Source of the DNA: Wohlfahrtiimonas sp. G9077
Lineage (GTDB): Bacteria; Pseudomonadota; Gammaproteobacteria; Cardiobacteriales; Wohlfahrtiimonadaceae
NCBI RefSeq assembly: GCF_002252155.1
Contig: NZ_NEFD01000001.1
Span: forward strand, 372,001-436,000
DNA: 64,000 bases
Direction of reading: 5' to 3'
Shown here: piece by piece, positions 32,229 to 51,930 of the stretch
Layout: the number at the start of each line of letters is the position of its first letter
Position numbering within the stretch: the first letter of the stretch is position 1
The notes under the pieces: generated by a model
Seen by the model: only the letters and a program-made list of their open reading frames with translations
Told to the model about the DNA's origin: nothing
Database searches by the model: none
Made by a program: the position numbers and the translations under genes

Positions 32229-32678
32229 ATGACCATTTGGGTGGATGCCGATGCGTGTCCAAAAGTGATCAAAGAGATTTTATACCGTGCGGCTAAACGC
32301 ACCTCAACCATGCTCTATTTAGTGGCGAACCAAAACTTATCCGTGCCCGCTTCCCCGTTCATCCGCTCTTTGACGGTGCCTCAAGGCTTTGATGTGGCTG
32401 ACCATGAAATTGTCGCACGCATCAATGCTGGTGAATTGCTCATCACGGCAGACATTCCACTTGCCGCCGATGCCATTGCAAAAGGTGCTTTGGTGATCAC
32501 ACCACGTGGCGAACCTTTAACGAAAGAGACGATTGGTTCACGTTTAAGTTTACGCAACTTTATGGATGAATTACGCTCAAGCGGCGTACAAACTTCAGGC
32601 CCACCGCCTTTATCACAAAAAGAGCGTCAACAATTTGCCAACGCGCTTGATCAATGGCTACAAATGCAACAGTCTTAA
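32229..32678 (+). CDS. yaiI: UPF0178 protein YaiI
   Basis: A 149-residue cytosolic protein of the YaiI/YqxD (DUF188) family, related to PIN-like or NYN folds. It opens [20 protein letters not shown], and has [20 protein letters not shown] with conserved acidic residues, [20 protein letters not shown] and the [10 protein letters not shown] tail. A nuclease-like activity is suspected for the fold, but no function is established. Its end overlaps the convergent next gene by four bases. Confidence 0.9.
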
Positions 32679-33148
32679 CTGCCACTTGTCCCAAAATATT
32701 CATTATTCACCCAGCCGCGTTTATACAACTGACCACTGAATAAACGCCCAAGCACATAACCACAATAATGTTTAAATGTGTCTGAGATTTCATTTTTATT
32801 TTCAATTTCTGCATTTACCCCGATGTCCATCACGCCATTATCGTACATATCGATGGACATCTTAATGTTCACAGAATTGTTCCATTGTGTGCTACCGCCT
32901 GTATTGCTATTGGCATCGACAAAAACGGGCAATGACGTAATGAATGAATTCTCAACACACACAAACGTGGTACCAACACTTTTTAAAAAATGACCGATGA
33001 TCATTTTAACGCTTTTGGTAATGTCATTGAGTGCAGATTTATCATATTGCTGACCAATGGTGTGCGTCGCCATTCTTGTCCATTCTTGTGATGCTGTAAT
33101 CTCAGCAATTAAGCCATCGAGATCTTCATTATTCAAATGCATATGCAT
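32675..33148 (-). CDS. Unknown 157-residue protein beside the CRISPR array
   Basis: I do not recognise this protein. It starts [18 protein letters not shown], is predicted soluble and mixed alpha/beta, has a serine/asparagine-rich middle ([15 protein letters not shown]) and no signal peptide. The frame is open seven codons further up, but AAGGAG sits at correct spacing before the ATG at 33148. It converges on yaiI, and lies on the trailer side of the CRISPR array, with no cas-like features. Confidence 0.65.
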
Positions 33149-33278
33149 AATATTCTCCTTAGTATTCATACGTTAAGTTATTTGATATCGTTATGACGAT
33201 TATTAGCACATTATATTTTTATGCTTATCTTTCATCTAATCGTGCAAACTATAACATTTATCAATTTTTCTGCAATTT

Positions 33279-34087
33279 TTTCTAAGCTGCCTATGCGGCA
33301 GTGAACGATCATGTGTTAGCTTTGTCTTGTTGTGCTTTTTTCTAAGCTGCCTATGCGGCAGTGAACAAATAGGCGCTGCATACTCAAAGATAATGAAGTT
33401 TCTAAGCTGCCTATGCGGCAGTGAACTGAATGAGATAGTGCTGCCCGTCGCGCTTCTCTTTCTAAGCTGCCTATGCGGCAGTGAACTGAAGTCTACGGCG
33501 TCAATTGCAATGTGGGTTTTTCTAAGCTGCCTATGCGGCAGTGAACGTGGTAGCCGTCCACTGCATCGACAAACATCATTTCTAAGCTGCCTATGCGGCA
33601 GTGAACACTTGCAGCAAGTCAAATTGATATTTTAGGCCTTTCTAAGCTGCCTGTGCGGCAGTGAACACTTGCAGCAAGTCAAATTGATATTTTAGGCCTT
33701 TCTAAGCTGCCTGTGCGGCAGTGAACTTTGCGTAATAAATCAGCGTTCCAATCGTAATTTTCTAAGCTGCCTGTGCGGCAGTGAACAAGCACGACGAATC
33801 AGAAATGCCAATGCGTTGTTTCTAAGCTGCCTGTGCGGCAGTGAACACCCTCTGCAATCACCTTGCAGAGACCAGCCGATTTCTAAGCTGCCTGTGCGGC
33901 AGTGAACAGACGCGTCTACGATTCTCAACCATGCTTGATTTTCTAAGCTGCCTGTGCGGCAGTGAACCGCCAAATTTAAACGAAACTACCTAGAGATTAT
34001 TTCTAAGCTGCCTGTGCGGCAGTGAACAAGGACGAAATAGCCCGTAAAATCTTTGCTGATTTCTAAGCTGCCTGTGCGGGAGCTAAT
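33279..34087 (-). CRISPR. Type I-F CRISPR array, 13 repeats plus one decayed repeat
   Basis: Thirteen 28-bp repeats start every 60 bases from 33279 (61 once), with 32-nt spacers and one of 33 (33847-33879). In crRNA orientation (minus strand) each repeat begins GTTCACTGCCGCATAGGCAG and ends CTTAGAAA, the I-F hallmark with a CTGCC/GGCAG stem cut by Cas6f. The six repeats from 33279 to 33606 have A at the fifth loop position where those from 33639 on have G (plus strand CTATGCGG versus CTGTGCGG). Spacers 33607-33638 and 33667-33698 are identical. The fourteenth repeat (34060-34087) matches over 20 bases and then has four changes in the last eight. By I-F orientation the leader should lie beyond 34087, where an integrase is found. 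The 130 bases before 33279 are AT-rich, with nothing recognisable. No cas gene lies in the window. Confidence 0.97.
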
Positions 34088-34220
34088 ACCCGTTTCCGCT
34101 CGTTTCCTAACGACTTTCACCAATTGATATACCGTTATTCTTAATATAACATTGTTTCCTTACATTTCTATCAATGTGTATAAATCACTAATTTTAGAGG
34201 GTATTCAAAAGGGTATAAAA

Positions 34221-35425
34221 ATGGCTAGAATTTCAAAACCATTAACCAATACACAAATTGCAAATGCAAAACCTAAAAACAAGTTATATCGCCTATATGA
34301 TGGCTATGGACTATGCTTAAAAGTTACTCCATCAGGCACAAAAATTTTTGAATATAGATACGTTAACCCAGATACAGGTAAAGAAGATACATTCATTATT
34401 GGACAATATCCACTCATCTCTTTAGCTGAAGCACGTACAAAACATAATGAACTCAGAAAATTAGTTGTTATTGAGAAGATAAATCCTAAAAACACAAATA
34501 ACAATGATTCATTTGAGCATATCTATAACGAATTCCATAAAATTTGGAGCCAATCCGTTATAAAAAAAATGCCAAGCAACAATATAACCTCATGTATACC
34601 TATTGTATGAAATATTTGGGTCATTTAAGCGTAAAAGATATTAAACCCCTTCATATCGTCAATGCATTGAAAGCTATTGAAGCTGCTGGATCTACAAGCC
34701 AAATTAAACGTGCAAAAACTGCCATCAGCAAAACATTCAAACATGCCGCAGGAAAAGGGCTCTGTAATAATAATCCAGTTGCTCTAATTAGTTTAGAATC
34801 TTTTAAACAGCATGTTGAACAACAACATCGAACCTTAAATCCTAAAGATATTTATAAATTACGAGAATTTATAAGTCATTCTAAAGCATCTTTAACAACA
34901 CGTATGGCCACAGAATTTACCCTAAGAACATGCTGCCGCATCCAAAACGTTGTGCAATTAAAATGGAGCTATATAGATACTCAAAAAAATATCATTAGTA
35001 TTCCAGCATCAATTATGAAGACCAGAGAACCACATCACATCCCTATTACCCCACAAATTCAAAATATTTTAGATATACAAAAAAATCAAAGTGAATATGT
35101 TTTTGCGTCTCATCAATCACATTTACGATCTACAACGCCAATCATGGCACTAAATACGAATAAGATTGAGACTTCTATTCATGGTTTAAGGCATCTAGCA
35201 TCAACCATCCTCAATGAAACAAAGAGATTTGATAAGGATATTATAGAGTCCATTCTAGCTCATACTGATAGCGATAAGATCAGAGAAACCTATAACAATG
35301 CCCAATACCTACATCTTAAAAGAGATGCCCTGCAATTCTGGAATGATTTCATTGATAAATGTATTGATGCAGAAAGTAACTTAAAAGCCCTAGAGGACGA
35401 AAACATCATCATTATTGATAGGTAG
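34221..35425 (+). pseudogene. int: P4-type tyrosine integrase, split by a -1 frameshift
   Basis: Two overlapping frames together make a full integrase of about 400 residues. Frame one (34221-34610) starts MARISKPLTNTQIANAKPKN, the DUF4102 arm-binding domain. Frame two (open to 35425) carries the SAM-like core-binding domain and the catalytic domain with FTLRTCCRIQNVVQLKW, HGLRHLASTI and RETYNNAQY, giving the arginine, HxxR and tyrosine residues. The shift is at eight As (34562-34569), readable as A AAA AAA; slipping back one base restores the frame exactly. It is either decayed, a sequencing indel, or translated by slippage. SD-like AAAGGG precedes the ATG. It is the left end of the prophage, directly beside the CRISPR array. 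Confidence 0.87.
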
Positions 35426-35439
35426 CCTATAAATGAATA

Positions 35440-35469
35440 AACCCGCCATAGTTTTCACTATGACGGGTT
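35440..35469. terminator. Hairpin between convergent genes
   Basis: A 13-bp stem AACCCGCCATAGT / ACTATGACGGGTT with one mismatch and loop TTTC, between the integrase stop and the convergent unknown gene. The T-run is poor on both sides, so it may be a weak or assisted terminator. Confidence 0.5.
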
Positions 35470-35489
35470 CCAGTTACCTATTGTATATA

Positions 35490-35966
35490 TCATAAACACT
35501 CATTTAAAATTAGTTCGCTTAAATCTAAAACCTTAAATATTGAAACAACTAGTTCTAGCTTTAATGTTAATGGTAAATTTTCATCATCACAGACTACCAA
35601 CACTTGAGCCTCATGCCGTAAGAAATTTATCCCCCGCTGTATAACAACTGGAGCTAATTTATGTTCACCTTCTAAATTCCCAATAGCCCAAAAAATTGCG
35701 TTATGCTTTTCTTCAACATTTTGAGAACAAGCAAAAATAACATTAAACCAAGATTCAAAAATATATTTCACATCATTGGGCTCAATATCTTCAGCTTTAT
35801 TGGTTAATCGTTCACTCCAATATTCCTTGTAATACTTCTCTACTAAATCTTTCGTAACCCCCTGTATACACTGATGTATTAAACAAATCTTTTTAATGTC
35901 TGGCTCTAACAGATCCGAAAAAATCTGTAGGCTTTCTATATTATTTTTTATTCCTGTAGCGATCAT
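35490..35966 (-). CDS. Unknown 158-residue protein next to the integrase
   Basis: Not recognised. A soluble, largely helical acidic protein with MIATGIKNNIESLQIFSDLL at the N terminus, a tryptophan-rich centre (EYWSERLTN, ESWFNVIFACSQNVEEKHN) and VLVVCDDENLPLTLKLELV near the end. A GTG four codons upstream (35978) is an alternative start; neither has a strong ribosome site. It is a single gene transcribed towards int, typical of prophage cargo. No function is inferred. Confidence 0.6.
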   Translation of the reverse strand: MIATGIKNNIESLQIFSDLLEPDIKKICLIHQCIQGVTKDLVEKYYKEYWSERLTNKAEDIEPNDVKYIFESWFNVIFACSQNVEEKHNAIFWAIGNLEGEHKLAPVVIQRGINFLRHEAQVLVVCDDENLPLTLKLELVVSIFKVLDLSELILNECL

Positions 35967-36141
35967 AATTCTATCCACTTCTTAAATAAATATAATTACA
36001 TTCTGTATAAAAGATAGCCATTTTGTAGCTGGGGCGTATTTTAATACAAAAATATTTTTTTACTAGCTTTCATCTATTTAAGAAATGTTCTGTAAATTTA
36101 AGATAAACACAAAATATGCAAACTTTTCATACAATAAAAAA

Positions 36142-36155
36142 TTGATTTATATCAA
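36142..36155. promoter_or_regulatory. FNR-type palindrome
   Basis: TTGATTTATATCAA is a perfect TTGAT-N4-ATCAA box, the FNR consensus, in the 240-base AT-rich gap before the unknown gene at 35490-35966. If used, that gene would respond to oxygen. In AT-rich DNA a chance match is possible. Nothing else is seen in this gap. Confidence 0.35.
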
Positions 36156-36216
36156 AAATTATACTTAAAGCACGGTGTTCATTTTTTATTCACTTGATTC
36201 AAAAAATCTTCATCAT

Positions 36217-36975
36217 CTACTGAAAAAGTAATACAACTTGAGTATAAATAGCTCCCAAACCAAAGACATCAAAAAATGCATGAGCCAACATAAATGGCAC
36301 TAATAAATTTGTTCTACGACGTATGAGAAGAAATACAACACCTAAAAGGGTGATGGCGATTGCACTATTTATGCCTTGATATGTATGAAAACTAAAACGA
36401 ATCACCAAACTATAAAGATACATCCAGCCAAAATATTGACGAGGAATACAAAATAATAAGCCTAAAAAGAAGATCTCTTCATAAAAGCCATTAAGCAAAG
36501 AAAACACTATTAAATTGGGCGTAATATGATTGTGTAATACATCACTACTAGCGGCATTTTCTACTGATTGTGCCAATAGATCAGGAGCATTCCATAAATG
36601 TACGCCCCAATCATAAAAGTATGTCGCCATATCTGAAGCACAGGCAAATAAAATTGCTAGTGGCACAGTGTAATAATTGACACGAAAATTTAGCTGTTTA
36701 AAGTCGAATCGCCGCACTAGCAAATATATACCTGCGATTGATAAACTCATCAATTCAAGTGCTATATCCCAATAGTGATTGGATTGAATGAAAGATAAAT
36801 CAAGCCCCGTTTGATCACCTACATTAGATAGATCTAAAAAGCTGATAGTGGATTGGATGATCGCTTGGCCAAAGAAAATAACCGTTAATACTAAAATATC
36901 CCAAATATTCAAATATGCATTTGTGAAGTATTTAGAACCATTCATTGAATCAATTCGCTTAGAGTTTACAACCAT
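36217..36975 (-). CDS. CPBP (Abi) family membrane protease-like protein
   Basis: A 252-residue membrane protein with about six to seven hydrophobic helices. The CPBP glutamate motif appears as FYEEIFFLGLL near residue 165, with histidine motifs RFSFHTYQG and MLAHAFFDVFG following, the order of CAAX-prenyl protease/bacteriocin-processing (Rce1-like) enzymes. The arginine usual in EExxxR is replaced by leucine here. Members in bacteria work in immunity to bacteriocins or unknown membrane proteolysis. It lies alone between the unknown gene and the STAND cassette, in prophage cargo. Start chosen as the first codon; the ATG ten codons in is possible. Confidence 0.75.
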   Translation of the reverse strand: MVVNSKRIDSMNGSKYFTNAYLNIWDILVLTVIFFGQAIIQSTISFLDLSNVGDQTGLDLSFIQSNHYWDIALELMSLSIAGIYLLVRRFDFKQLNFRVNYYTVPLAILFACASDMATYFYDWGVHLWNAPDLLAQSVENAASSDVLHNHITPNLIVFSLLNGFYEEIFFLGLLFCIPRQYFGWMYLYSLVIRFSFHTYQGINSAIAITLLGVVFLLIRRRTNLLVPFMLAHAFFDVFGLGAIYTQVVLLFQ

Positions 36976-37041
36976 CTAAATACATACCCATAAATCTTAG
37001 ACTTATAACTGATAACCATAAGAGATTTCAAGATATTGAAT

Positions 37042-37260
37042 CTAATTTGGCTGCAATATATAAACAAATAGTTTATATGCCAATGCTTGAATTTCTTCTT
37101 TATGTTGCTGAATAACACGCTTAATGTTAATCCATCCCCTTTTTCTAAACTCGGAAGGCAGTTATGTCAACACCTACCCTTTTAGCTAAATCAGCATAAG
37201 TGATGTTTATATCTGGCGGAAGCGGATGGAGTATTACACCGCCACAAAACGATCAATAAT
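37042..37260 (-). pseudogene. Remnant of a small DNA-binding-like gene
   Basis: The 384-base gap before the STAND gene holds two pieces of coding-like sequence in different frames on the minus strand. The first reads PPDINITYADLAKRVGVDIT, helix-turn-helix-like; the second continues LPSEFRKRGWINIKRVIQQH and EEIQALAYKLF up to a stop at 37042. Together they resemble a small phage regulator broken by a frameshift, with no start codon visible. The rest of the gap (37261-37359) shows nothing. Confidence 0.35.
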
Positions 37261-37359
37261 TGCTTTATTCTTTGTTTATCAAAAACATACTAAATTACCC
37301 TAAAACATAAAACTTTATGTGGTTGGATCTCTTTTGGTACAAAATGACCCTTTAAAATA

Positions 37360-40300
37360 CTATGGTAATGAAATTCTAATATCATATTTTTCATCTTTAA
37401 CATTTGGTGATACAAAGCCAAAAAAGTCAGCTAAGTAATTTAGCAATAAACTCTTTAAATTTTCATCATCAGTAATTTCCACATTTTCTAAACAAAAATG
37501 CTTTCGTAAACCATAAATAGACTGATGAATAAGGTAAAGAAACTCCTTTCCTTCCATATTCTTTTCAAATTCATATTGATTGTTAATTAGTATTATATCT
37601 GGAGTGCCAATCTCCTTCTTCTCCATATGAATAGATGAAACCTTTTCAAAAGAAAGTGCTATATATAAAATGGGAATCTGCTCCTTACAATATTCTTGCA
37701 ATTGTGGAGAATATAAAAAAAATTGTATTGGGCAAGAAATATTTGAAAAAATAAGTTTAGTCGTAATAAAGTCTGATATTTCATTAATAAAAAGAATCAA
37801 AGCAATCGCTAGTTTTTGACATATCAATTCATCTTCATAGACTGTTATTTGTAAATTAATTTTTTCAGATATTACTGTGGTGAGTATCACTGCTTCATCT
37901 ATTGTTCGATACGAAAAGAAACTCAATTTTTGAGATAATTCTTCATAAATAATATCAAGCTCATCTTGCCCTAACAGCTCCCTGGACTGTTCGATTATAA
38001 TCCCCAATAAACTATAAGAATACTTTATACCGCCAACTTTATTTATCATTAACTGTACAATTTCTAAGAAAAACTCTTTTCCTGCTTTGCTTTCTACTCT
38101 ATTGCAATAATTTACTAACTGAGATATCGCATCAACTGCATTTTGCTCACTAATGCCTTCTTGAGAAAGATATCTTGTAAATAAATTAACAGTATATTCT
38201 CTGATGGATACTTCCTCTGCATAAGAAATAATTATTTCCATGCAGTATGAAACATCTAAATTAATCCTCTCACAAAAAATCAATTGATTATTTATAAGAT
38301 CTTTTACTTTAACTTGATCATTTTCTGTATGATAAATCTTAATAGCCTCTGAAATCATTTTTTGATATGCATGTGCAAACATATCTATCTCAGCGTAATG
38401 AGTTGCGCTCATAATAAAACTTTCTGCAGAATCTTTTGATCTTCCTAACAATAATAAGGTTTCTGCTTTATGTTCTAAAGCTTTTGCCATTCCATAACGA
38501 AATTCTGACTCCTGACATTTTTTGTATGATTTATCAGAAAATTCTAAGCTTAGTGCATAATCACCTTCCAATCTTTTCTCAGCCGATAGAATCCAATATA
38601 TTCGTCCAACCTCTTTTAGTAAATTAGCCTCTAAAGCTTTACTAAGAGCTTCTTCATATATGTTTATAGCTTTTTCTTTATCACCAGAATCTCTAATTAT
38701 ATTTCCATAATTAATTAAATTAAGTACAACCTTGTCGCTTAACCCATATTTCTGACAGAATGCTATTGCTTGCTCACTGAACATTCTAGCTTTATCAAAA
38801 TCTTCTTTCTCTCTATATATATGCGCTAAAGTACTTAATGTTACTGTTCTAACGAGCAAAACATTTGGTGATTTATCTAGATACTCTAATAGTTTTAATC
38901 CATACTCTTCTGCTAAATCTAATTTCCCCTTTATTTGAGATAGACAGGAAACAAAGTTTGAACAACTCATAATTATGCCTTGTTGTTCACCCAGTTCTAC
39001 AAATAATTCATAAGCCTTTTTAGCTGTCTCTGCTCCTTTACGAAATTCTGAAAGATCCGTATATATTTTAGATATATTGCTCAGAACAAGAGGTTTTATC
39101 TCTTTAGAATATGTATCTAAATCATCAAAAATACGATCAACTATTTTTAATGCCTCTGAAATACAACCTATTTCTACATAATTAATTGCTTTGAATGTTA
39201 GAGCTGATACATATAGCTCGTGGTTCTCATGATTTAATAAATCTAGTGCCTTATCTACAAATTGTGTAGATTCATTTTTATTTCCTAGCAAATGGTGAAT
39301 ATGAAAAAAACAATAATATAAGTATCCCTCTTCAAAACTTGATTCAGCATACTCTTTTTTAATTTCCAAAAGCTCTAATGCAAATAATAAATCTCCAGAC
39401 TCTACTAAGTAAGGAACAACTGCAAAGGCATATTTTTCAATTTTCTCAGGCTGGTTCTTTCTTAACAGATAAGTAGCATGAATTATTTTTTTTTCTGATA
39501 AATAGTATTCTCCTAACTGCTTTTGATAGACCGATAGAATTCCATTCTTTTCTAACTTCTCATGAATGAACTCTTCAAGTGAAGGATGAAATATCTCTAA
39601 ATGCCCATCATTGTTTTTAACCAACTGATGAATTTCCTGAAGATCTTTTGCAACCTGTATTGGAGTTCTACCAGAGATTTGAATCAATTCTTTTATATTC
39701 ACATAAGAATATGAAATAGCAATAAATATTAATTTTTCTTGCTGAATCTCCGACAAATTATTCCAAATTTCATTTTGAAATGCTTGCAAATCTGGCGGAA
39801 TAGAATCTCTATTAAAATGAGAGTAATAAAAGAGATATAATGGATTCCCTTGAGATGAACTTATTAAATTATTTAAATCTAATTCACCAATAAAAATATC
39901 GTGACTCAATAAATATTGCCTAATTTCATCTTTTGTAAAAGAATTACAAGCATAAGAAGTAATTGGAAGATGCTCAAATAACTTATTATTTCTTACTAAA
40001 AAAAGGAAACTATTTTGGCCTTTTTCAAAACACATCAATTTCTCTGCTAACTCTTTACTTTGGTCACAATCATCAATAATAAAATGAATTTTAGACTGAA
40101 TTTCAAGCAAACAAACTTGCATCCATTCAAGTGCTTCCTCCAAATTTGTGATTTCTAATAAACTATCATTATTAATACCTCTAACTTTATTAATCAAATA
40201 CAATAAAACACTCAGAGATGATTTATTCTTTAAAGAGATATAAATAACTTTATCTGTAGTATTAGAAATTTGATATGCCAATGTACTTTTACCAATACCT

Positions 40301-40557
40301 GGTTCTCCATATAAAATCACTTGACCACTTTCTTCTAAAAACCTATTAATATCCTCTACTAGGCTTTCTCTAGTGATTAGCTTTTTAGCATCAAAATCAG
40401 ATACAAGCATTCTGAAATAATCTAATGAATTACGTTCTGCCAATTCTTTCTGTTTCTCAATTCTTAAGAATTCTTGAACCTCAGAAGAGTCCTGAAGATA
40501 GAGATTTCCATTTACATTATAAATTTTTTCAGCATGCTGACTTTGAATTTCAACCAC
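37360..40557 (-). CDS. STAND-type NTPase with TPR repeats (defence-like)
   Basis: A 1065-residue protein in three parts. Residues 1-25 carry IQSQHAEKIYNVNGNLYL, nearly the same as the tail of the upstream 146-residue protein. Residues 60-350 form a P-loop NTPase: Walker A in VILYGEPGIGKSTLAYQI near 80, Walker B in KIHFIIDDCDQ near 155, then winged-helix-like helices. Residues 370-760 are tandem TPRs. The last 300 residues are unrecognised and show no TIR, nuclease or protease motif. STAND proteins act as sensors in phage defence and cell death; that role is inferred. GTG start at 40557 with AAAGGA upstream, three bases after the previous stop. Strongly AT-rich. Confidence 0.82.
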   Translation of the reverse strand: MVEIQSQHAEKIYNVNGNLYLQDSSEVQEFLRIEKQKELAERNSLDYFRMLVSDFDAKKLITRESLVEDINRFLEESGQVILYGEPGIGKSTLAYQISNTTDKVIYISLKNKSSLSVLLYLINKVRGINNDSLLEITNLEEALEWMQVCLLEIQSKIHFIIDDCDQSKELAEKLMCFEKGQNSFLFLVRNNKLFEHLPITSYACNSFTKDEIRQYLLSHDIFIGELDLNNLISSSQGNPLYLFYYSHFNRDSIPPDLQAFQNEIWNNLSEIQQEKLIFIAISYSYVNIKELIQISGRTPIQVAKDLQEIHQLVKNNDGHLEIFHPSLEEFIHEKLEKNGILSVYQKQLGEYYLSEKKIIHATYLLRKNQPEKIEKYAFAVVPYLVESGDLLFALELLEIKKEYAESSFEEGYLYYCFFHIHHLLGNKNESTQFVDKALDLLNHENHELYVSALTFKAINYVEIGCISEALKIVDRIFDDLDTYSKEIKPLVLSNISKIYTDLSEFRKGAETAKKAYELFVELGEQQGIIMSCSNFVSCLSQIKGKLDLAEEYGLKLLEYLDKSPNVLLVRTVTLSTLAHIYREKEDFDKARMFSEQAIAFCQKYGLSDKVVLNLINYGNIIRDSGDKEKAINIYEEALSKALEANLLKEVGRIYWILSAEKRLEGDYALSLEFSDKSYKKCQESEFRYGMAKALEHKAETLLLLGRSKDSAESFIMSATHYAEIDMFAHAYQKMISEAIKIYHTENDQVKVKDLINNQLIFCERINLDVSYCMEIIISYAEEVSIREYTVNLFTRYLSQEGISEQNAVDAISQLVNYCNRVESKAGKEFFLEIVQLMINKVGGIKYSYSLLGIIIEQSRELLGQDELDIIYEELSQKLSFFSYRTIDEAVILTTVISEKINLQITVYEDELICQKLAIALILFINEISDFITTKLIFSNISCPIQFFLYSPQLQEYCKEQIPILYIALSFEKVSSIHMEKKEIGTPDIILINNQYEFEKNMEGKEFLYLIHQSIYGLRKHFCLENVEITDDENLKSLLLNYLADFFGFVSPNVKDEKYDIRISLP

Positions 40558-40560
40558 AAA

Positions 40561-41001
40561 TTAGTCCTTTTTTGATTTGTAAAAATCACCTTGAACATTA
40601 ATAATATCTTGGCCAGCATGTTGCTGGCCAATATTAAAACCTTTAGTATTTGTAAATGTCATTTGGGACGCAGTTATTATCTGTTGAGAATGCTCTTGAA
40701 CCCAGTCTTTTATTGTAAAAAACAATTCATCATCATAGCTATTACCTGTTAGTTCTTCATAATGATCCTCAATATCCCTAAAAGGTTTTGTAGGATTAAC
40801 AGATGGTTTTGTACATAGATCTTCAATATATCTATTCGCCTCCTCATCTGAATTAAAAAACCTTTTTACTTTCTTACCTAATGATGACAAATCAATAGCC
40901 TTCTTTAACCCATCATAGGTTGCACTAGCAATTACACCTGTAACGACATTTCCAGATTCTGCTAATATTACCCCACACAATGCTGCAAAAATTGTTGTCA
41001 T
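40561..41001 (-). CDS. 146-residue partner protein with shared C-terminal motif
   Basis: Not a family I can name. The N terminus MTTIFAALCGVILAESGNVV is hydrophobic up to about residue 32 and could insert in or lie on the membrane. The middle is charged and helical (EEANRYIEDLCTKP, ELFFTIKDWVQEHS). The tail FNIGQQHAGQDIINVQGDFY aligns with the first residues of the downstream STAND protein, suggesting a common interface. DNA for the motif contains a perfect inverted repeat TTGGCCAGCA-TGT-TGCTGGCCAA at 40609-40631. Three bases separate it from the STAND gene, so they are one operon. It may be the effector or adaptor; this is inference. Confidence 0.68.
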   Translation of the reverse strand: MTTIFAALCGVILAESGNVVTGVIASATYDGLKKAIDLSSLGKKVKRFFNSDEEANRYIEDLCTKPSVNPTKPFRDIEDHYEELTGNSYDDELFFTIKDWVQEHSQQIITASQMTFTNTKGFNIGQQHAGQDIINVQGDFYKSKKD

Positions 41002-41020
41002 ATAAATAATTCCTTATAAA

Positions 41021-42019
41021 TTAATTTTTCAAATAATCTTCTAAAACTTTTTGGTCGTTGCTAATTTGCTCTTTAATTTTCTCTATAGTATAAAAATCAT
41101 CATCAGGATAGTAACTAACAAATGACTCATATGTGGATACCAAATATTGCAATCTATTAATTTCACTGATTAAAAATGAGCTATCAGAAGTACAATCTTT
41201 TTTCATTCGTTCTTCAACTGTTAAGTTACAAATTGCTTGTTTAATCAATATTTCGTCATACGTCCCAATTAACTCATCTACTAAGCTAGATAGCCATAAA
41301 TTTTGTATTTTATGAAAGGTTATAGGCATCAGTGTTCTTAGTTCACTTATTCTTCTTTCAGATATTTGTTCTTTAGAATATCTAGGAAGCATTTTTTTCT
41401 TGTCTACTTTGGTATCTTTCATCCCATAAGTTATTACATTAGAATCCTGAGGTATTTCACCTTCTTTAACAAAACTAAATACTTTCTTCTTAAAAAAATC
41501 TTTTCCCCAATTCCCTTCCAGATTCGGGTCTCCAACAACAGATCGAATAACAATCTCTTCAGTATTTTTAATATTTTCTTTGAAATTAATATAATTATCA
41601 CTTTGTACTGTCATATGCTTAAAATACGTATTCACATAGACTAATGGATTAATTTTTTTTAACAAATCTCTAGGAACTATTCTTTCTATTAATCTATTTA
41701 GCTCAGGACCAATAGAAAATCCATAAGAACCATCTTTCTTCTCTATAAAAGTAAGGTCAACAGCATCTCCATCATCATTTGATCTAGAAACCCAATCCAT
41801 AAATGTAGCCATAACTTTATCAGCTGGCTCTTTATTCTTGAATTGAAATACTATCTGTACAGGACGAATATTATCATTTATTTGCTCAAATACATAAGCC
41901 AACCCCAGACATTCGGCTTGTTTGAATAATTCTGAAAACTTAATATCTCCGACAACCATAAAGTTGGGTTTAATACCAAAATCAAATCCTATCATTTGAT
42001 TATCCTGTTTTGTAATCAT
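41021..42019 (-). CDS. Unknown 332-residue protein of the STAND cassette
   Basis: No recognised family. A soluble protein with an alternating strand/helix N-terminal half (PNFMVVGDIKFSELF, PVQIVFQFKNKEPADKVMAT, DAVDLTFIEKKDGSYGFSIG) and a helical C-terminal half with many charged residues. No nuclease, TIR, SIR2 or protease motif is visible. GAAGAAAT precedes the ATG. It lies 15 bases after the 80-residue gene and 19 before the 146-residue gene, all on the minus strand, so the four genes look like one operon. Confidence 0.68.
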   Translation of the reverse strand: MITKQDNQMIGFDFGIKPNFMVVGDIKFSELFKQAECLGLAYVFEQINDNIRPVQIVFQFKNKEPADKVMATFMDWVSRSNDDGDAVDLTFIEKKDGSYGFSIGPELNRLIERIVPRDLLKKINPLVYVNTYFKHMTVQSDNYINFKENIKNTEEIVIRSVVGDPNLEGNWGKDFFKKKVFSFVKEGEIPQDSNVITYGMKDTKVDKKKMLPRYSKEQISERRISELRTLMPITFHKIQNLWLSSLVDELIGTYDEILIKQAICNLTVEERMKKDCTSDSSFLISEINRLQYLVSTYESFVSYYPDDDFYTIEKIKEQISNDQKVLEDYLKN

Positions 42020-42034
42020 ATTTCTTCACCCAAA

Positions 42035-42277
42035 TTAAATTAATAAACTAATATTCCCACCAATCTTATCCTTAATCATCGCAGCAGTAGCTTTTGAAGC
42101 AGCATACTGACCACCTGACAATTCGCCCAATCGGCTTTTAATAACGTCAATCATAGTATCAATAACTGCTTCACTTTTCTTTGCATCCAATCCTGAGTTT
42201 TTAGCCAAGTTAATGAGATGTACACACTTAACTTTATAAGCCTCACCTTCTATATCCATTTGGTGATAACCATTCAA
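42035..42277 (-). CDS. Small 80-residue protein heading the STAND cassette
   Basis: An 80-residue helical protein, MNGYHQMDIEGEAYKVKCVH at the start, then LGELSGGQYAASKATAAMIK and a hydrophobic end NISLLI. Not recognised. GAGAG lies a few bases before the ATG at 42277; the ATG six codons in is an alternative. First gene of the cassette; the 65-base gap to the endonuclease gene upstream could hold the promoter. Confidence 0.6.
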   Translation of the reverse strand: MNGYHQMDIEGEAYKVKCVHLINLAKNSGLDAKKSEAVIDTMIDVIKSRLGELSGGQYAASKATAAMIKDKIGGNISLLI

Positions 42278-42342
42278 CTCTCAAGATTAAGTCATAAAGA
42301 TGTTCACCACTTTCAGATGCCTATTAGTTGAAAAAGTTAAAG

Positions 42343-43248
42343 TTACTTACATTTATTCAGATCAATATCGGAAATATAGTTATTCCCCCATCCCATAACA
42401 CATGCTGTTCTTTGGTTACGTTCTTTTTCCCATTCTGTTACTGGATACATCTTATTCCACGCATTAAATAGCTGCTGATCTTGCTTTGACAATCTCATGC
42501 CATAGCGATCATACATATAGAGAGTAATACGCGCTACGATGCCACGTATTTCTTCTCTAGGCATCATTTTACGAGCCTTAAAATCAATCACGGTTTGACA
42601 TGATCCATATTGATGGGGCGATTCATTTAACATGCCATACATAAAATCTGATCGATCACCATTAACTTCACCAATCACAGGTAAAAAGTTATGAAGATCT
42701 GCTTCGGCTTTATTAAACTCTTCTGAAACCTTTTGGCAGTTTTTTCGACCACCATTTTTCCAACACTGATACTGTTTGCCTACGATAGAAATAGGTAAAA
42801 CATGTTCCCACTCTACTCGATTTGCTCTCGTAGCATTTTTTCTGACTTTATAGCCACAACTTGCGATATCAATCACCCCACTACCTTTGTTTCCCTGCCA
42901 TGTAATAGGACAATCGCAATATAGTTCTTTTGATGTATCAAAATAAATACTTTTGACTGCTGCCGCTTTAGCTTTGCGGAAATTTTCAGGTGGTTTAATA
43001 GATACTAATTGTACATCAGTGACCCTTTTTACCTCAAAATTATTAGATGGTTCTATTTGTTGTATCGGATCAACTCTCCCCGCAACTCCACCATGTCCAG
43101 AGCAAGTACCTCTACCCACTGATGTAGAATACATACCATCTCTACAAAGAGATTTTACATTTGGATCAGAAGCATCAGATGTAACATAGGCATTAGCGCC
43201 CGAAATCCATCCAAGTACCATTAGCATATAAGCAAATAGTTTTTTCAT
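42343..43248 (-). CDS. Secreted endonuclease I with N-terminal DUF3761-like domain
   Basis: A 301-residue exported nuclease. Signal peptide 1-20 (ends SGANA). Residues 25-57 hold LCRDGMYSTSVGRGTCSGHG, a cysteine/histidine module like DUF3761. From about 95 comes the endonuclease I (EndA/Dns) domain: ELYCDCPITW, VEWEHVLPISIVGKQYQCW with the catalytic histidine, EADLHNFLPVIGEVNGDRSD, and an RYGMRLSKQDQQLFNAW end. Periplasmic or secreted DNases of this family degrade double-stranded DNA. GGGGGAGGA precedes the ATG. It lies in prophage cargo between the STAND cassette and the tail fibre genes, and may be a lysogenic-conversion gene. Confidence 0.88.
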   Translation of the reverse strand: MKKLFAYMLMVLGWISGANAYVTSDASDPNVKSLCRDGMYSTSVGRGTCSGHGGVAGRVDPIQQIEPSNNFEVKRVTDVQLVSIKPPENFRKAKAAAVKSIYFDTSKELYCDCPITWQGNKGSGVIDIASCGYKVRKNATRANRVEWEHVLPISIVGKQYQCWKNGGRKNCQKVSEEFNKAEADLHNFLPVIGEVNGDRSDFMYGMLNESPHQYGSCQTVIDFKARKMMPREEIRGIVARITLYMYDRYGMRLSKQDQQLFNAWNKMYPVTEWEKERNQRTACVMGWGNNYISDIDLNKCK

Positions 43249-43350
43249 TATCCTCCCCCACCTATAAAATCCAGAATTCTGTCCCTATATGCTATACCAA
43301 AAAATTAGACAATAAAAAAAGTGCGCTAATTAAAGCGAAGCGCACCTATC

Positions 43351-43611
43351 TTAATTTGATTTAATACCTGATGGGCTAGATTCATGTGTAAGCTTAGATG
43401 TGATCCCACTCGCTTCTCCTTCATCAAATGTTGGTTTACCTCTACGAATAAAACTATTGTTTTCGGCACATGGTTTATTTCCAGCAATAATCACAAATAA
43501 ACCATCTGAGCATGTTGATTGTTCAGAGCCATTTGATTGTGTCTTAGCATTTACAATGCCTGAACATATAAAAGAAAAGAATAAAATATAAAAAACTATT
43601 TTTTTCATCAT
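43351..43611 (-). CDS. Small secreted cysteine-containing protein
   Basis: An 86-residue product with a clear signal peptide (MMKKIVFYILFFSFICSGIV, cut near NAK). The mature part has STCSDGLFVIIAGNKPCAEN, reminiscent of the C-x-DG...C module in the neighbouring nuclease, then a hydrophilic tail. AGGAG lies right before the double ATG; the second ATG (43608) has better spacing. Probably a short paralogue of the nuclease's N-terminal module. Function unknown. Confidence 0.6.
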   Translation of the reverse strand: MMKKIVFYILFFSFICSGIVNAKTQSNGSEQSTCSDGLFVIIAGNKPCAENNSFIRRGKPTFDEGEASGITSKLTHESSPSGIKSN

Positions 43612-43648
43612 TTCTCCTACGACTACATCGGATATAAAATTTTAAGTT

Positions 43649-44026
43649 TTAATAAAAACCATAAGACACCTCATAAGGGTTTTCATATTGTAATGTTTTA
43701 ATCTGTAATTTTACAGATTTGAGTTGTCTCGCAATCTCAGCAGCTTCAATCTGCTCGTCTAAAAGTAAATGCATATTCATTGTCGTTTGTAATTCATGAT
43801 GTTTTACCTGCAAATCATGTAGCATTTGTTCTTTTTCATATGCCTTTAATTCTTCTTTAGTTGGCAATGGTATTGCAGGATCATCAACCCATGTGTTAGT
43901 GGAAAGATCATAAGTTTTAGCACCGCCCACAAAGCCATTTGGCACTTCAACTGCTATTGTTTCCCATACAACATCAGGCGTATAAGAATATGACCTCATA
44001 TCAGCCTTATTAACATAAATAATCAT
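43649..44026 (-). CDS. Phage tail fibre assembly-like protein
   Basis: A 125-residue protein at the distal end of the tail operon: MIIYVNKADMRSYSYTPDVV, a KTYDLSTNTWVDDP turn typical of tail-fibre-assembly (Tfa-like) N termini, then a helical tail (KEELKAYEKEQMLHDLQVKH). It overlaps the fibre gene by four bases (ATGA), so it probably works with that fibre. Confidence 0.6.
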   Translation of the reverse strand: MIIYVNKADMRSYSYTPDVVWETIAVEVPNGFVGGAKTYDLSTNTWVDDPAIPLPTKEELKAYEKEQMLHDLQVKHHELQTTMNMHLLLDEQIEAAEIARQLKSVKLQIKTLQYENPYEVSYGFY

Positions 44027-44802
44027 TTAGAACCCCCTATTTTCCATACATGCATACGCACTGGAGCCATACCAGGATTATCAGGTACAAAAACACCGCC
44101 GGATACGGCGGGATTGTTCACACCTACAGTACCTGCACCTGTCTGAACGTAAATCCCTTCACCTAAAATCATACCGCCTGTAACGAAACCACCACCCGCA
44201 CCTTCCCCGGTTCTCCCCCACTTATCAAGCTTCTCAGAGTAGATTTCCACTACAGTTAAAACAGGGACGTTATCACCAAATGGGTTAGGTAGAACTTTAC
44301 GTTCATTACGCATCATCGTGCCAAAATCAACTAATGTGTAATCTGCATTAATATTATTACTGGCCTCGATATCTAACTTAGCACTAATATTTCTTTCAAT
44401 CTCTTTACATGATGCCAAAATAGCCTGGCCCTTAGATCTAGCATCCTCAATCATAGATTGTAAGTTAGATTCAATGTTTTGAAAGATATTTGAAAGATCG
44501 CTATTAAGAGTAGTGGGCTTATTATAAAGCCATTCTTCAAATGTATTAGTAGGACTATCTTGTTTCATCTCAAATAATCGCCCTCCTAGTAATGGAAAAA
44601 CATTTCCATCAGCACCAGTACTGATACTAACCTGATAAGATCCAATGGGTAACTCAAAAGAATATTGCCCTTGAGCATCAGTTTTAGTCGTCACCTTTCT
44701 GATGCCATCTTGCGAAAAATAAAGAAACGTATTAATTAAGGGCTCAACAATTTGTGAGCCCTTTTGATTATTTTTAGTAATTTTAAGAATACCCGTTTGC
44801 AT
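44023..44802 (-). CDS. Phage tail fibre / receptor-binding protein
   Basis: A 259-residue protein. The N-terminal 95 residues form a carboxypeptidase-regulatory-like beta domain (VTTKTDAQGQYSFELPIGSY) as in lambda-type side tail fibres that attach to gpJ. A central helix (about 100-150) likely makes a trimeric stalk. The C-terminal glycine-rich part (GAGGGFVTGGMILGEGIYVQ) would be the tip. It is short for a fibre, and may be the receptor-binding tip of this phage. Confidence 0.65.
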   Translation of the reverse strand: MQTGILKITKNNQKGSQIVEPLINTFLYFSQDGIRKVTTKTDAQGQYSFELPIGSYQVSISTGADGNVFPLLGGRLFEMKQDSPTNTFEEWLYNKPTTLNSDLSNIFQNIESNLQSMIEDARSKGQAILASCKEIERNISAKLDIEASNNINADYTLVDFGTMMRNERKVLPNPFGDNVPVLTVVEIYSEKLDKWGRTGEGAGGGFVTGGMILGEGIYVQTGAGTVGVNNPAVSGGVFVPDNPGMAPVRMHVWKIGGSK

Positions 44803-44812
44803 ACTTCAAACC

Positions 44813-45490
44813 TCATAAATCACTAATATCTAAGATAAACCATAAAATATCATAATTAGAGCGCCAATAATTATTGGACTCGCTTCTGTCAGGTGGTGCT
44901 AAAAATACATTGGGCCTAACAGATACATGAGTCCCTACACACTCTATAACCGATGCTTTGCTATACTCAAAAGCTCCTGCAACATGCCTACGAGATAAAT
45001 CATTTCCGACTTGTACAAAAGCTAATTTTGTCACCTGATTAATTGATCTATACCACACAGGCTGCGGATTGAATTTACTAATATATCCAATCACTTTTGC
45101 TGTCTTTAGTGATGAGTTGTAAATTAATTTTTGTTGTGAATTATAAATATTAACGCCATACATATCTTTATTCGCATCGCCGTCGTATGGTTTAAAAAGA
45201 TGCGCTTTTGCAGGCTTAGAAATATCTAAAGTTGCTATGCGTAATAAGCTAGTATTAGCATCTCTATGGTTCCATGAAATGATACTACCCTCTTCAATTG
45301 CAACCACTGAATTTTTCAATATAGCCCTTGGGATATGATACTCTGTCAACACGGATTTATGCATACCTGGAGCATTCGTGCCATATCTAACCCATGTATA
45401 TTTTAATGGCACTTTATAATATTCAAAAACCACACCACCATCATTTAATGTTCTTAAACCATTTTCTCTACTAAATTGAACGCCATACAT
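44813..45490 (-). CDS. Phage tail protein of unknown role (DUF6453-like)
   Basis: A 225-residue beta-rich protein between J and the fibre gene. The start MYGVQFSRENGLRTLNDGGV fits small tail-tip proteins of lambda-like phages in which a variable residue run follows a YG.Q motif. It shares one base with the previous stop. Family name is tentative. Confidence 0.5.
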   Translation of the reverse strand: MYGVQFSRENGLRTLNDGGVVFEYYKVPLKYTWVRYGTNAPGMHKSVLTEYHIPRAILKNSVVAIEEGSIISWNHRDANTSLLRIATLDISKPAKAHLFKPYDGDANKDMYGVNIYNSQQKLIYNSSLKTAKVIGYISKFNPQPVWYRSINQVTKLAFVQVGNDLSRRHVAGAFEYSKASVIECVGTHVSVRPNVFLAPPDRSESNNYWRSNYDILWFILDISDL

Positions 45491-45753
45491 TAGAAACTCC
45501 CCTTCATTACAGTTAAATGATCGGAAACAGCTGTAATTGTTACAAGGCTACCATTAACGGACACTCGCTCCTTCCAAAAGTCTGATGCGCCAACGTCTCT
45601 CACTGAAGTAAAGACAAACTCTCCCTTTTCAACGCTAATATCTATACCCATGCTTTGACCTTTTTTAAGTTCAATTGCTTTATTAAAAGTAACAACATCA
45701 CCAATTTTATTAATGACTTGGCCACTTTTATTTTTTATTTGAATATCAAACAT
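45490..45753 (-). CDS. Small phage tail protein
   Basis: An 87-residue beta-rich protein from MFDIQIKNKSGQVINKIGDV. GGTGGA precedes the ATG at 45753, preferred over the TTG/GTG four codons upstream. It lies right after J, in the position of small tail-tip accessory genes. No specific function recognised. Confidence 0.55.
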   Translation of the reverse strand: MFDIQIKNKSGQVINKIGDVVTFNKAIELKKGQSMGIDISVEKGEFVFTSVRDVGASDFWKERVSVNGSLVTITAVSDHLTVMKGSF

Positions 45754-45779
45754 GTTATCCACCAATCTTCATCATTTTA

Positions 45780-48700
45780 TTAATTTAATTTTCCAATTCT
45801 AATTCTTTCAATACCATTATCATCGTATACAAGAATATGATCACTCGTAATTCTTAAACCAACGTTTTGATTTGGATTACTACTAATCGTGACATTTCCA
45901 TCACTAGATACTATGAATTTTTTATTAATGTTTAATGTCCCTCCTTCTATCACGGGTGCTTTCAATTTTGCACCTGCAACCAGTGACTCACCTTTAATTG
46001 TTCCGCTTGCAATTAAGTCACCATCTAGGGCTAACTTGTTTTCCCATAAAACAAATGGCATTTTAGATGTCCCATTCGTTGGATTTACTATGGCAAATTT
46101 ATTCGCTTGTATAATAAACTCTGACGTTTTCCCATCATTCAAACTCGTAAAGCCAGAAATCACTTTTTTACCGCCACTCATAGCGACTGTTCTTAAAGTA
46201 TATTGCGATTTAACTTTTCCATCTACATAGGCTATTGTTTGCTCCACATTTTCAATTGAGGCATTTATATTTTGATCAATTTCTGTCTTTAGCGTTTTAA
46301 TCGATTCAGCCTGCGCTTCTAATTGAGTTGTTGAAGTTTTCTGAATCTCATCGATTGATGCCTTAATACTATTATCAACTTCTGATTTTAAACTCTCAAT
46401 GATCAGCGACTGTGCTGATAACTGATCAGTTGTGGTCTTTTTAAAAGTATTAATTTCTGCCTGATTAGCCTCAACGATAGAACGATTAATCGTAGTTTCC
46501 GCAAGAATGGCCTGACTCTCTGTCGCTTTAGAAAACTCTAACAGCTTAGCTTCAGCCAAGGCTTGATCAGCCTTTTTCTGAATTGCTTTCATTACTGTTG
46601 ATTGATCAATCAATGTTTGCATGTCTTGACGTGCTTCTTTTAAAGCATCTTCAATGATATGTGTTGCAACATCATCAGATAACTCTTTAAGCGTTACTTT
46701 CCCGCGAATCATCTCAATAATGCTCGTTGAGTCATTAGATGATTCAGCATAGAACGCACGCGTAAATTCACCTTGATTACCATCTAAATCGACTAAGCGA
46801 AACCAGAAATAACGGCCATCTTTAATCCCTAGATTACTAACTGTATAAGTATTCTGTGGATATGGCATTTTGGCCGCTAAAGTTGCTTTACTTCTATCTT
46901 CACTTTGTGACCACCATATTTCTGTATATGCTTCTGTTGTTAAAAGCGATGGCACTTCCCAATATAGATTTAAGCCAAAAACGATGGGCAAATATCTTAA
47001 ACCTGTTATTTCATAAGTGGTGCTAAATGAAATAGATAATTCTGCACTGTATTGGCCATATTCATTAAGCGCTCGAATACGTGCTGTATAGTTGCCCTGA
47101 GGAAGATTTGTGAGTTTAGTGAACGTTTCAAATGTTTCAAGACGACGCAGTAATTTTTTACCATCATACAGATGGATAATATACTTAACTTTCCCGCCTA
47201 ATGTTTCAATGCTATCCCAACGTAGTACAAGGCTTTTACCCTCATTTTCTACAATGCCATTACTCAAATGCGGAATAGTATTTAGTGATGAATGATGACC
47301 TTGTATGTATGAGGCACCACGATCAACAATCGCTTCTTTTTGTGGATTGTGTTTAATGGCCGTTACTGTATATGTATTCGTCTCTCGATCTTCTTCAATG
47401 TGTATGCATCTAAATAATCTAGGCTGTAATTTCCCAACAATCGCCGCAAATTGTACATGTTCAACTGCATTCACTGGTGCATCAAGTTTATATTGAGTTG
47501 CACTAATCGCTCGTTTAACCTTGAAGGTTTTCACCTTACCTTCAACATTAATCAAGAAAGATGTCACTCCTTTGATATCACGATCAATAGTGATCACATC
47601 ATTAGCAATATCCACAATACGACCGCCAACTTGTTGCCCAGCATAATTACTATCTGCTATCCCTACAATATCGTGTTGCTCATGTCGAATACCCGCAGCA
47701 CCTAACTTAAACTGAACATGTTCATTTTCTGTTAAAGAGGTAATCAAATTCCACTTTGCACAACGTAGTGCTTGTGATCGTTTCGTACATCCAAAAGCTG
47801 TAATAGATGTGGATCTAAGACCATATCTAGCGATATTCTTCTCATCTGATACTTCATCTATTTTTGTACGATAACCGTCCTCTTGATCAATGTACTGTAC
47901 TTGAATTTGATTATAGAGCTCTGTTGCAGGCACAAATGAATAGTTAAATTCTCCATCAACTACGCTAGAATTTTCATATACTGCAATAACATCACTTTTA
48001 CTATCGAAATACACAGTAAAATAGTTATTAGCATCTGAATATGTGCCACGGAAAACTGAACATAAATTATCTAATACTGTTTTAGCATCCTCACCAAACA
48101 AAATGGCATTACAGACAAAACGAGGTTCTTTTCCACCATTGCCGTCATCTACCAACGCATCACAATACTTAGATAACTCATATAACTTATCAATATCTAT
48201 TTGATAGTCTGTAAACTTCTCACCAAAACACTCATCATTTGTTAGGACATCGTACAAAACCCATGCAGGATTGTTCGTATATGCTGGTTTAAACAATCGA
48301 TCCCACAATCCTGAATAAGTACGCGTTACAGGATCATAGTTAGATGGAACTTGTACAATACAGCCTTTGATGCCATATGTTCTCGTCGGATTGTTATTGC
48401 CAAATTGCTGAGAATCGATTTGTAAAAATGCTACGGCAGATCCTGGCATCCTTACTTTGACATCTATTGATTCCACATAGCTAAAGAAATACGTCTTATT
48501 TCTCAACATATCATCCTTAGAATCAGCAGTTAAACGAATACATTTGATATCAAATGGGGCTATGGGCAAGTCTGAGAACACATAATCAACGCGAAAAGGT
48601 TGATTGCCCTTCTCGTTTAAATGCATGTGTTGTGCGGCATGTACCTGACCATTTTTAATGATTTGAATACTCATATCAACAGACGTTGCTAGCTGATCTC

Positions 48701-49097
48701 CTTCTGTTGTAGAACGCATCAAAGCATCTACACCAACCGTTACACGCACACTGGTTACTTGTTTATTAGTTACCGTACGCGTAATAGGGTTTTTCTTTTC
48801 AACCTGAGCCCCCACAGTGTAAGAAGTATCTACAGACATGGCACTAGGCAAATAATCTTGTTCTAACGTTCCACGGTTAAATTCAAATTGAACATCGGCA
48901 TGGTTCATAGATCCATCAATATTCTGTACAGCTGTATCATTCAGATAAACAGACTTTAATGGATGATCATTACCATTAATAAAACCTGCGATTTCCCCGC
49001 TACTGATTAAATCTATGACTTTGAGTTTTTGCGCAGAATGTAATGTATTTTTTTCAATGCGTGGTGATCTTGCACCACCTCCTGATTTACCACCCAT
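45780..49097 (-). CDS. J: Tail tip / host specificity protein J
   Basis: A protein of about 1105 residues, equal in size and order to lambda gpJ, which forms the central tip and binds the receptor. Start MGGKSGGGARSPRIEKNTLH is typical; GGAG lies six bases before the ATG at 49097, which is inside a longer frame from 49109. The N-terminal half contains LISSGEIAGFINGND and the hub domains; near residues 600-800 are fibronectin-III-like repeats (NYTARIRALNEYGQYS); then coiled coil (800-960), and a C-terminal DUF1983-like beta region (VDGKVKSQYTLRTVAMSGGK). Host range is likely set here. Confidence 0.92.
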   Translation of the reverse strand: MGGKSGGGARSPRIEKNTLHSAQKLKVIDLISSGEIAGFINGNDHPLKSVYLNDTAVQNIDGSMNHADVQFEFNRGTLEQDYLPSAMSVDTSYTVGAQVEKKNPITRTVTNKQVTSVRVTVGVDALMRSTTEGDQLATSVDMSIQIIKNGQVHAAQHMHLNEKGNQPFRVDYVFSDLPIAPFDIKCIRLTADSKDDMLRNKTYFFSYVESIDVKVRMPGSAVAFLQIDSQQFGNNNPTRTYGIKGCIVQVPSNYDPVTRTYSGLWDRLFKPAYTNNPAWVLYDVLTNDECFGEKFTDYQIDIDKLYELSKYCDALVDDGNGGKEPRFVCNAILFGEDAKTVLDNLCSVFRGTYSDANNYFTVYFDSKSDVIAVYENSSVVDGEFNYSFVPATELYNQIQVQYIDQEDGYRTKIDEVSDEKNIARYGLRSTSITAFGCTKRSQALRCAKWNLITSLTENEHVQFKLGAAGIRHEQHDIVGIADSNYAGQQVGGRIVDIANDVITIDRDIKGVTSFLINVEGKVKTFKVKRAISATQYKLDAPVNAVEHVQFAAIVGKLQPRLFRCIHIEEDRETNTYTVTAIKHNPQKEAIVDRGASYIQGHHSSLNTIPHLSNGIVENEGKSLVLRWDSIETLGGKVKYIIHLYDGKKLLRRLETFETFTKLTNLPQGNYTARIRALNEYGQYSAELSISFSTTYEITGLRYLPIVFGLNLYWEVPSLLTTEAYTEIWWSQSEDRSKATLAAKMPYPQNTYTVSNLGIKDGRYFWFRLVDLDGNQGEFTRAFYAESSNDSTSIIEMIRGKVTLKELSDDVATHIIEDALKEARQDMQTLIDQSTVMKAIQKKADQALAEAKLLEFSKATESQAILAETTINRSIVEANQAEINTFKKTTTDQLSAQSLIIESLKSEVDNSIKASIDEIQKTSTTQLEAQAESIKTLKTEIDQNINASIENVEQTIAYVDGKVKSQYTLRTVAMSGGKKVISGFTSLNDGKTSEFIIQANKFAIVNPTNGTSKMPFVLWENKLALDGDLIASGTIKGESLVAGAKLKAPVIEGGTLNINKKFIVSSDGNVTISSNPNQNVGLRITSDHILVYDDNGIERIRIGKLN

Positions 49098-49099
49098 AT

Positions 49100-49816
49100 T
49101 TAACTCCACTGAACCCTAATGTTAATAGCAGCATTACGTACAGAATCACAATTTCTATCAATATTGTACGTTTTACCATTTGGATCTTGAGCTGCAATCA
49201 ACTCAACTGTTTGACGAGAATATTTAGCTGTTTGAACATTATTAATATCTATACTTGATTCAATACGTCGACTTGCTAAACCTTGTGAAATGACATAGCC
49301 ACCGACCAACATTTCACCATATACACGTAAGATCTGTTTGCCTTGACCCGCCATATTAGATAGATTGCTAAACGCTGAAGACTTTGAATCTTCTACACCT
49401 TTATAATCTTGATTGAATTTTGGCTGTTTAGTTAATAAAGCTGCTGCACCTGCTAACATCAATCCGACGCCCATTTGCAATAAAACTGTAGCAACCATTG
49501 CACCACCAACGCCCATAACACCCATTGCAGCGAATGCAGCTCCAGCAACGAGAGCCAATGGACCCGACCCTTTTACAATTGGGATCACTCTAATAATTAA
49601 CGGCTTACTGGCATTGATACCCGTTAAATATTCATCTTGACCAACATATCGCCGCCCTATTTTTAATGCGTACTGTTTATATTTAACGTGTTTTTTAAAC
49701 CCATCTAATTGAATACATAAAGAACGCATACACTCATTGACTGTATTGCCATATAAGCTAATTTCTTTGCCATACTTTCTTAATGCACCATAGAATTTAA
49801 ATGTAATTTTCTTCAT
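49100..49816 (-). CDS. I: Tail assembly protein I
   Basis: A 238-residue homologue of lambda gpI. N-terminal ubiquitin-like part (KITFKFYGALRKYGKEISLY), then PLIIRVIPIVKGSGPLALVA and a long glycine/alanine/methionine-rich hydrophobic segment (about residues 85-135), as in the family. AAGG lies nine bases before the ATG at 49816; a GTG two codons upstream is possible. It overlaps K at its start. Confidence 0.87.
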   Translation of the reverse strand: MKKITFKFYGALRKYGKEISLYGNTVNECMRSLCIQLDGFKKHVKYKQYALKIGRRYVGQDEYLTGINASKPLIIRVIPIVKGSGPLALVAGAAFAAMGVMGVGGAMVATVLLQMGVGLMLAGAAALLTKQPKFNQDYKGVEDSKSSAFSNLSNMAGQGKQILRVYGEMLVGGYVISQGLASRRIESSIDINNVQTAKYSRQTVELIAAQDPNGKTYNIDRNCDSVRNAAINIRVQWS

Positions 49817-50504: not shown

Positions 50505-50533
50505 AATAATCCTTTTCTAAAAGACAAAATAAA

Positions 50534-50549
50534 AGCCCAATAAAGGGCT
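50534..50549 (-). terminator. Hairpin terminator between L and K
   Basis: On the minus strand AGCCC-TTTATT-GGGCT is followed by TTTATTTT. It sits between the L and K genes and could reduce read-through of the late transcript or, read from the other side, insulate the opposite-strand RNA. Confidence 0.5.
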
Positions 50550-50557
50550 CAATGGAA

Positions 50558-50588
50558 TTGACAAAAATTAAAACGTTTATGCTAGAAT
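50558..50588 (+). promoter_or_regulatory. Plus-strand promoter of candidate RNA A
   Basis: Perfect TTGACA at 50558 and TAGAAT at 50583 with an extended TGC before the -10; the spacing of 19 is long, but the extended -10 may compensate. Confidence 0.45.
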
Positions 50589-50594
50589 TTAGTT

Positions 50595-50663
50595 CTACAT
50601 ATATTTTCCTGTAGATTTATTGATTGTAGGTTCTGTTTATACATATATTCAGAGCCTTTTTTT
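50595..50663 (+). ncRNA. Candidate phage small RNA A
   Basis: About 69 nt on the strand opposite to the late genes: hairpin TCTACA / TGTAGA (50594-50615), then terminator stem GGTTCTG / CAGAGCC (50629-50656, one G-U pair) and seven Ts. It fits exactly into the L-K gap, three bases short of the L stop. No open frame of note. Confidence 0.5.
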
Positions 50664-50665
50664 AT

Positions 50666-51839: not shown

Positions 51840-51845
51840 TTTGTT

Positions 51846-51915: not shown

Positions 51916-51930
51916 CATCTATTAGACATT

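Follow-up and report, generated by a model that had tools for sequence, protein, structure and literature searches.

The prophage that begins in this window very probably arose when a siphophage integrated into an internal repeat of a type I-F CRISPR array, the repeat having acted as attB; this reading is drawn from one instance, in which the core shared by the two prophage ends is short (9 bp). The window is the whole stretch of 64,000 nt that was analyzed (C1:372001-436000 of a 2.1-Mb draft genome in 14 contigs). As read at the sequence level, the anatomy of the insertion is almost certain, and we have very high confidence that site-specific recombination by a tyrosine integrase produced it. 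In the proposed mechanism a temperate siphophage would integrate by conservative site-specific recombination between attP and the palindrome at the core of an internal I-F repeat (attB), with the phage's own tyrosine integrase as the presumed catalyst of the crossover and TGTGC as the probable crossover overlap. The insertion split an array of 51 repeats and 50 spacers such that the 37 newer spacers are still attached to the leader, with the cas operon intact; the 13 older spacers beyond the prophage would lose leader-driven transcription and presumably fall silent.

The trailer-side part of the array lies at 33279..34059 on the minus strand and comprises the 13 oldest spacers of the array together with 13 perfect repeats. 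The perfect repeats (33279-34027) recur with a period of 60 and are separated by spacers of 32-33 nt; repeats 1-6 belong to the TATGC type and repeats 7-13 to the TGTGC type. A 14th copy is exact over 20 nt (34060-34079, TTTCTAAGCTGCCTGTGCGG) and then diverges sharply, so that the loss of identity after 20 bases reported in the preliminary description was seen again as an abrupt break. These 20 nt, the first of the split repeat on the plus strand, constitute attL (34060..34079, minus strand). On the chromosomal side the trailer is flanked by a yaiI/yqxD gene (+) and a hypothetical gene (-) at 32229..33169, both of which also adjoin the uninterrupted array of a relative. Because the repeat is read on the minus strand (GTTCACTGCCGCAYAGGCAGCTTAGAAA), the leader was expected to the right; the leader and cas genes do lie on that side, as had been predicted, but 51.5 kb further on.

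From 34080 the prophage fills the remainder of the window (34080..64000, its left 29.9 kb) and continues to C1:457605 (window-equivalent 85605), which places 51,526 bp between the cores. Inspection of the right prophage end beyond 64000 revealed the missing repeat half, the att core, the leader and the cas genes. The repeat part on the attR side occupies C1:457606-457622 (window-equivalent 85606-85622), and the 9-bp att core CCTGTGCGG, found at 34071..34079, occurs again at C1:457606-457614 (window-equivalent 85606-85614). The sequence just left of C1:457655 reads ...aaaactt-CCTGTGCGG-CAGTGAAC followed by a spacer, which supplies the missing part of the repeat. The left part TTTCTAAGCTG-CCTGTGCGG and the right part CCTGTGCGG-CAGTGAAC overlap in the core, and the joined halves give a perfect 28-bp repeat in the 60-bp phase with 32-nt spacers on either side. 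Since the other repeat half and the common 9-bp core are present at the far prophage end, the break in copy 14 is due neither to chance nor to decay. A genome-wide repeat search showed that the array resumes at C1:457655-459842 with 37 perfect repeats, to the right of which follow the leader and then cas6f, csy3, csy2, csy1, cas2/3 and cas1. All six cas genes scored above the NCBIfam cut-offs and the operon is intact; with repeats of 28 nt, spacers of 32 nt, six cas genes and a leader adjoining cas6f, the locus is of type I-F. Before the split the whole array thus comprised 51 repeats and 50 spacers, and the split repeat is the 14th from the trailer; 37 spacers (14 to 50 from the trailer) are joined to the leader and 13 of the 50 (1 to 13) are cut off.

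The prophage encodes head, tail, portal and terminase proteins within the window, and repressor, replication, RecT, SSB and AlpA/excisionase-type proteins beyond it. Its structural and regulatory set (portal, terminase, scaffold, major head, tape measure, tail tip, endolysin and an S24 repressor) makes the gene content the full set for a siphophage-type prophage. The AlpA/excisionase-type gene adjoins attR and the tyrosine integrase adjoins attL. The integrase (34221..35425, plus strand) matched PF13356 (Arm-DNA-bind_3), PF22022 (Phage_int_M) and PF00589 (Phage_integrase) above cut-off; with its ATG at 34221 it begins 134 bases after 34087, where an integrase had been described before, and the matches to PF13356 and PF00589 bear out that identification. 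Its coding sequence is distributed over two frames (34221-34610 and 34544-35425) with a -1 shift at an A8 run (~34562-34569), which may reflect an error in the assembly, a genuine mutation by which the prophage would be locked in, or programmed slippage. Because the frame is shifted, present activity of the integrase seems doubtful. A free attP was not found in IMG/VR, where the attP 17-mer gave two matches with unrelated flanks. The prophage also carries defence-like cargo, part of it at 36217-40557: a type III restriction-modification pair, a large NB-ARC/TPR ATPase of 1065 aa, a DNA methyltransferase and a CPBP-type protease. No named anti-CRISPR family was among the matches listed.

Tyrosine recombinases use symmetric half-sites around a short overlap. 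The palindrome of the I-F repeat is CTGCC-TGTGC-GGCAG, and the two prophage ends give CTTCC-TGTGC-GGGAG as attP; each of the four half-sites, two in attP and two in attB, conforms to CTNCC. When the whole 2.1-Mb genome was searched with the attP 15-mer, allowing at most two mismatches, we obtained attL and attR and, besides these, no sites other than eight further CRISPR repeats of the TGTGC type, all in one orientation. The TATGC-type repeats, which make up the majority in both arrays of the genome, fall outside this two-mismatch match, and no better vacant attB was present elsewhere in the 2.1-Mb genome within two mismatches. As the TGTGC-type CRISPR repeats are the sole two-mismatch matches to attP besides attL and attR, they are the best available attB in this genome, and the prophage occupies one of them. 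Copies of AGGGTAT near attP are candidate arm sites, though weak ones, since a terminator-like hairpin is formed by two of the four.

Whether the CRISPR repeat is the regular attB of the phage rather than a fallback site we consider an even call. If it is regular, the integrase would, with the same even chance, have I-F repeats as its cognate attB and thereby sites that are multi-copy, non-essential and found mainly in CRISPR-bearing hosts. The palindrome might then be read as recombinase half-sites, with the loop TGTGC, not TATGC, selecting the repeats, for which the chances are equally balanced. It is likewise a toss-up whether use of such sites cuts off part of the antiviral memory and leaves the CRISPR system able to act against competitors. 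Alternatively, and with a probability we place somewhat below even, the regular attB lies elsewhere, e.g. in the usual host, and the CRISPR repeat served as a secondary site when nothing better was present. The identical core of only 9 bp is consistent with such fallback integration, as is the single known instance, with no second insertion by a related integrase in the genomes and records searched. However, the half-site symmetry of attP and that of the repeat agree, and the genome offers no better vacant site, yet this second point does not discriminate if the host lacks the regular site.

A 9-bp direct repeat on either side of the element would also be left by transposition, if a mobile element that duplicates 9 bp of its target had happened to land in the repeat. 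However, the ends of the element, GAGCTAATACCC vs AAGTTTTGGTAT (the reverse complement of the right end), are not inverted repeats. The recombinase linked to its end belongs to the tyrosine integrases, an excisionase-type gene lies at the opposite end, and no more than nine sites in the genome match, of which the target is one. Transposition was rejected because the element has no terminal inverted repeats, and we regard it as highly improbable.

It is just as improbable that the join between array and prophage is false and was caused during assembly by the repeated CRISPR sequence. Such an artefact would be favored by the repetitive nature of CRISPR repeats and by the draft state of the genome (14 contigs), but the joins lie at the 9-bp core within the repeat, which is too short for an assembly overlap, and unique phage sequence follows. 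The same right junction is present in an IMG/VR record, although this may be the same assembly. Furthermore, the sequences that border the two array parts on their outer sides correspond to a single continuous locus in G001, a member of the same genus and the closest relative compared at this locus. There the order is autotransporter, yaiI, hypothetical gene, an array of 18 repeats, leader, cas6f and csy3, with no insertion; the yaiI protein is 100% identical and the leader clearly similar. Because G001 has the same flanks around an uninterrupted array, the two array parts belong to one array split by the prophage. The right prophage end is thus located in the same array and not in an unrelated gene, the leader is found where the I-F orientation predicts it and not elsewhere with the array reversed, and at this locus the array of G001 is continuous.

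The preliminary description had proposed in full a leader-proximal insertion that disarms the CRISPR system, and although the fragment in the window is in fact without its leader, this reading was rejected as the least probable of all, since 37 repeats, the leader and all cas genes are still joined on the other side. The prophage does lie in a repeat of the I-F array, as had been suggested, but this repeat is internal, the 14th of 51 from the trailer, and not leader-proximal. Severance from the leader and cas operon, also suggested there, holds for the 13-spacer fragment and not for the 37 spacers that remain leader-joined. With those spacers in place and cas1, cas2/3, csy1-3 and cas6f all intact, the claim that the phage disarms its host does not hold, and the outcome for the host is a partial loss of memory, not disarmament.

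For the hybrid repeats RNA folding gave hairpin energies of -6.3 kcal/mol (attL) and -3.1 kcal/mol (attR), compared to -8.6 kcal/mol for a normal repeat. As these hairpins are weaker, processing by Cas6f is probably impaired at both hybrid repeats. Between the leftward prophage genes and the integrase we found a terminator-like hairpin, and because it separates the two, we infer from the sequence that the 13 old spacers would be mostly silent in the lysogen. Comparison of the spacers with the prophage gave no full match, and comparison of the array fragments with phage records gave weak matches only. On the leader side, spacer 43 (C1:459363) has a perfect 16-nt seed-side match to the prophage at C1:443506, with GC, not the consensus CC, at the PAM position; the match is weak, but would be in line with an earlier encounter with a related phage.

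The search for further cases was directed at both the integrase and the repeat. No relative of the integrase within the family exceeds ~43% identity, with nothing stronger in the order or in 369 genomes of the class; against phage records identity was at most 33%, and a GTDB scan returned no close relative. IMG/VR contained one 100% match; its record shares the 37-repeat array and may come from this very genome. All queries of this screen were relatives of this integrase, so that unrelated integrases could be missed. Among 53 IMG/VR stretches with I-F repeats there was no other half-repeat beside an integrase; several of these stretches are natural trailers with degenerate repeats. A scan of IMG/VR for I-E repeats yielded 6 stretches. 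The attL-like pattern, searched for in the 369 class genomes, was restricted to this site and to ordinary repeat variants, and in the open-access literature searched we came across no prophage described as using a CRISPR repeat for its attB.

Comparable temperate phages have P4/lambda-type tyrosine integrases and integrate at tRNA genes, which serve as attB. The prophage described here resembles these phages in that its tyrosine integrase, which has an arm-binding domain, lies next to one att site and an excisionase-type gene is found at the other end, as well as in its conservative insertion at a short core within an inverted-repeat sequence. In contrast to a tRNA gene, its attB is a CRISPR repeat that exists in many near-identical copies, and the whole target is rebuilt on neither side, each side keeping a hybrid repeat. 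Type I-F CRISPR-associated Tn7-like transposons, which are guided by CRISPR RNA, likewise link mobile DNA with an I-F CRISPR system; however, in our case the phage lands in the DNA of the array, and the cas operon is part of the host locus. The attB of a prophage also lies within a repeated element in phiRv1 of Mycobacterium tuberculosis, which resides in the REP13E12 repeat (PMC9317374), although phiRv1 employs a serine recombinase and REP13E12 lies outside any immune locus. Insertion sequences interrupt CRISPR loci as well, for example in Xanthomonas citri (PMC6889575); there too a mobile element breaks the locus, but the process is driven by a transposase and not by phage site-specific recombination. 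The process in the CRISPR repeat is the familiar one of phage integration; what is unusual, and informative, is its site.

Integration into a repeat would let a phage both live with and edit the immune memory of its host. Older spacers would be cut off without mutation and could be restored if the prophage excises cleanly. The locus provides a concrete attP/attB pair that can be tested, and it leads to the prediction that palindromic CRISPR repeats can act as integrase sites, as tRNA stem-loops do. It also advises caution with orphan array fragments beside integrases, as these may be halves of split arrays.

Several further observations concern the arrays themselves. In the split array repeats 7-15 are of the TGTGC type, with TATGC in both the older and the newer repeats, and simple growth at the leader end does not explain this internal block of variant repeats. 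Two pairs of spacers in the same array are identical (6 = 7 and 17 = 25). A second I-F array of 23 repeats, all of the TATGC type, lies at C1:583001-584348, ~115 kb from the cas operon; its region (C1:581500-586500) gave no notable spacer match to the prophage region. Spacer 4 of the array in G001 and spacer 24 of the split array differ at 4 of 32 bases, as if they were derived from homologous phages. In four IMG/VR contigs the trailer ends of I-F arrays run into the same coding sequence (VKFLAYYTDNDDALQSA...), which is apparently a truncated gene. Finally, the 39-kb contig IMGVR_UViG_2795385460_000001 starts and stops within a single I-F repeat, and its two ends put together complete that repeat; a circular element with an array of its own would be expected to look like this.
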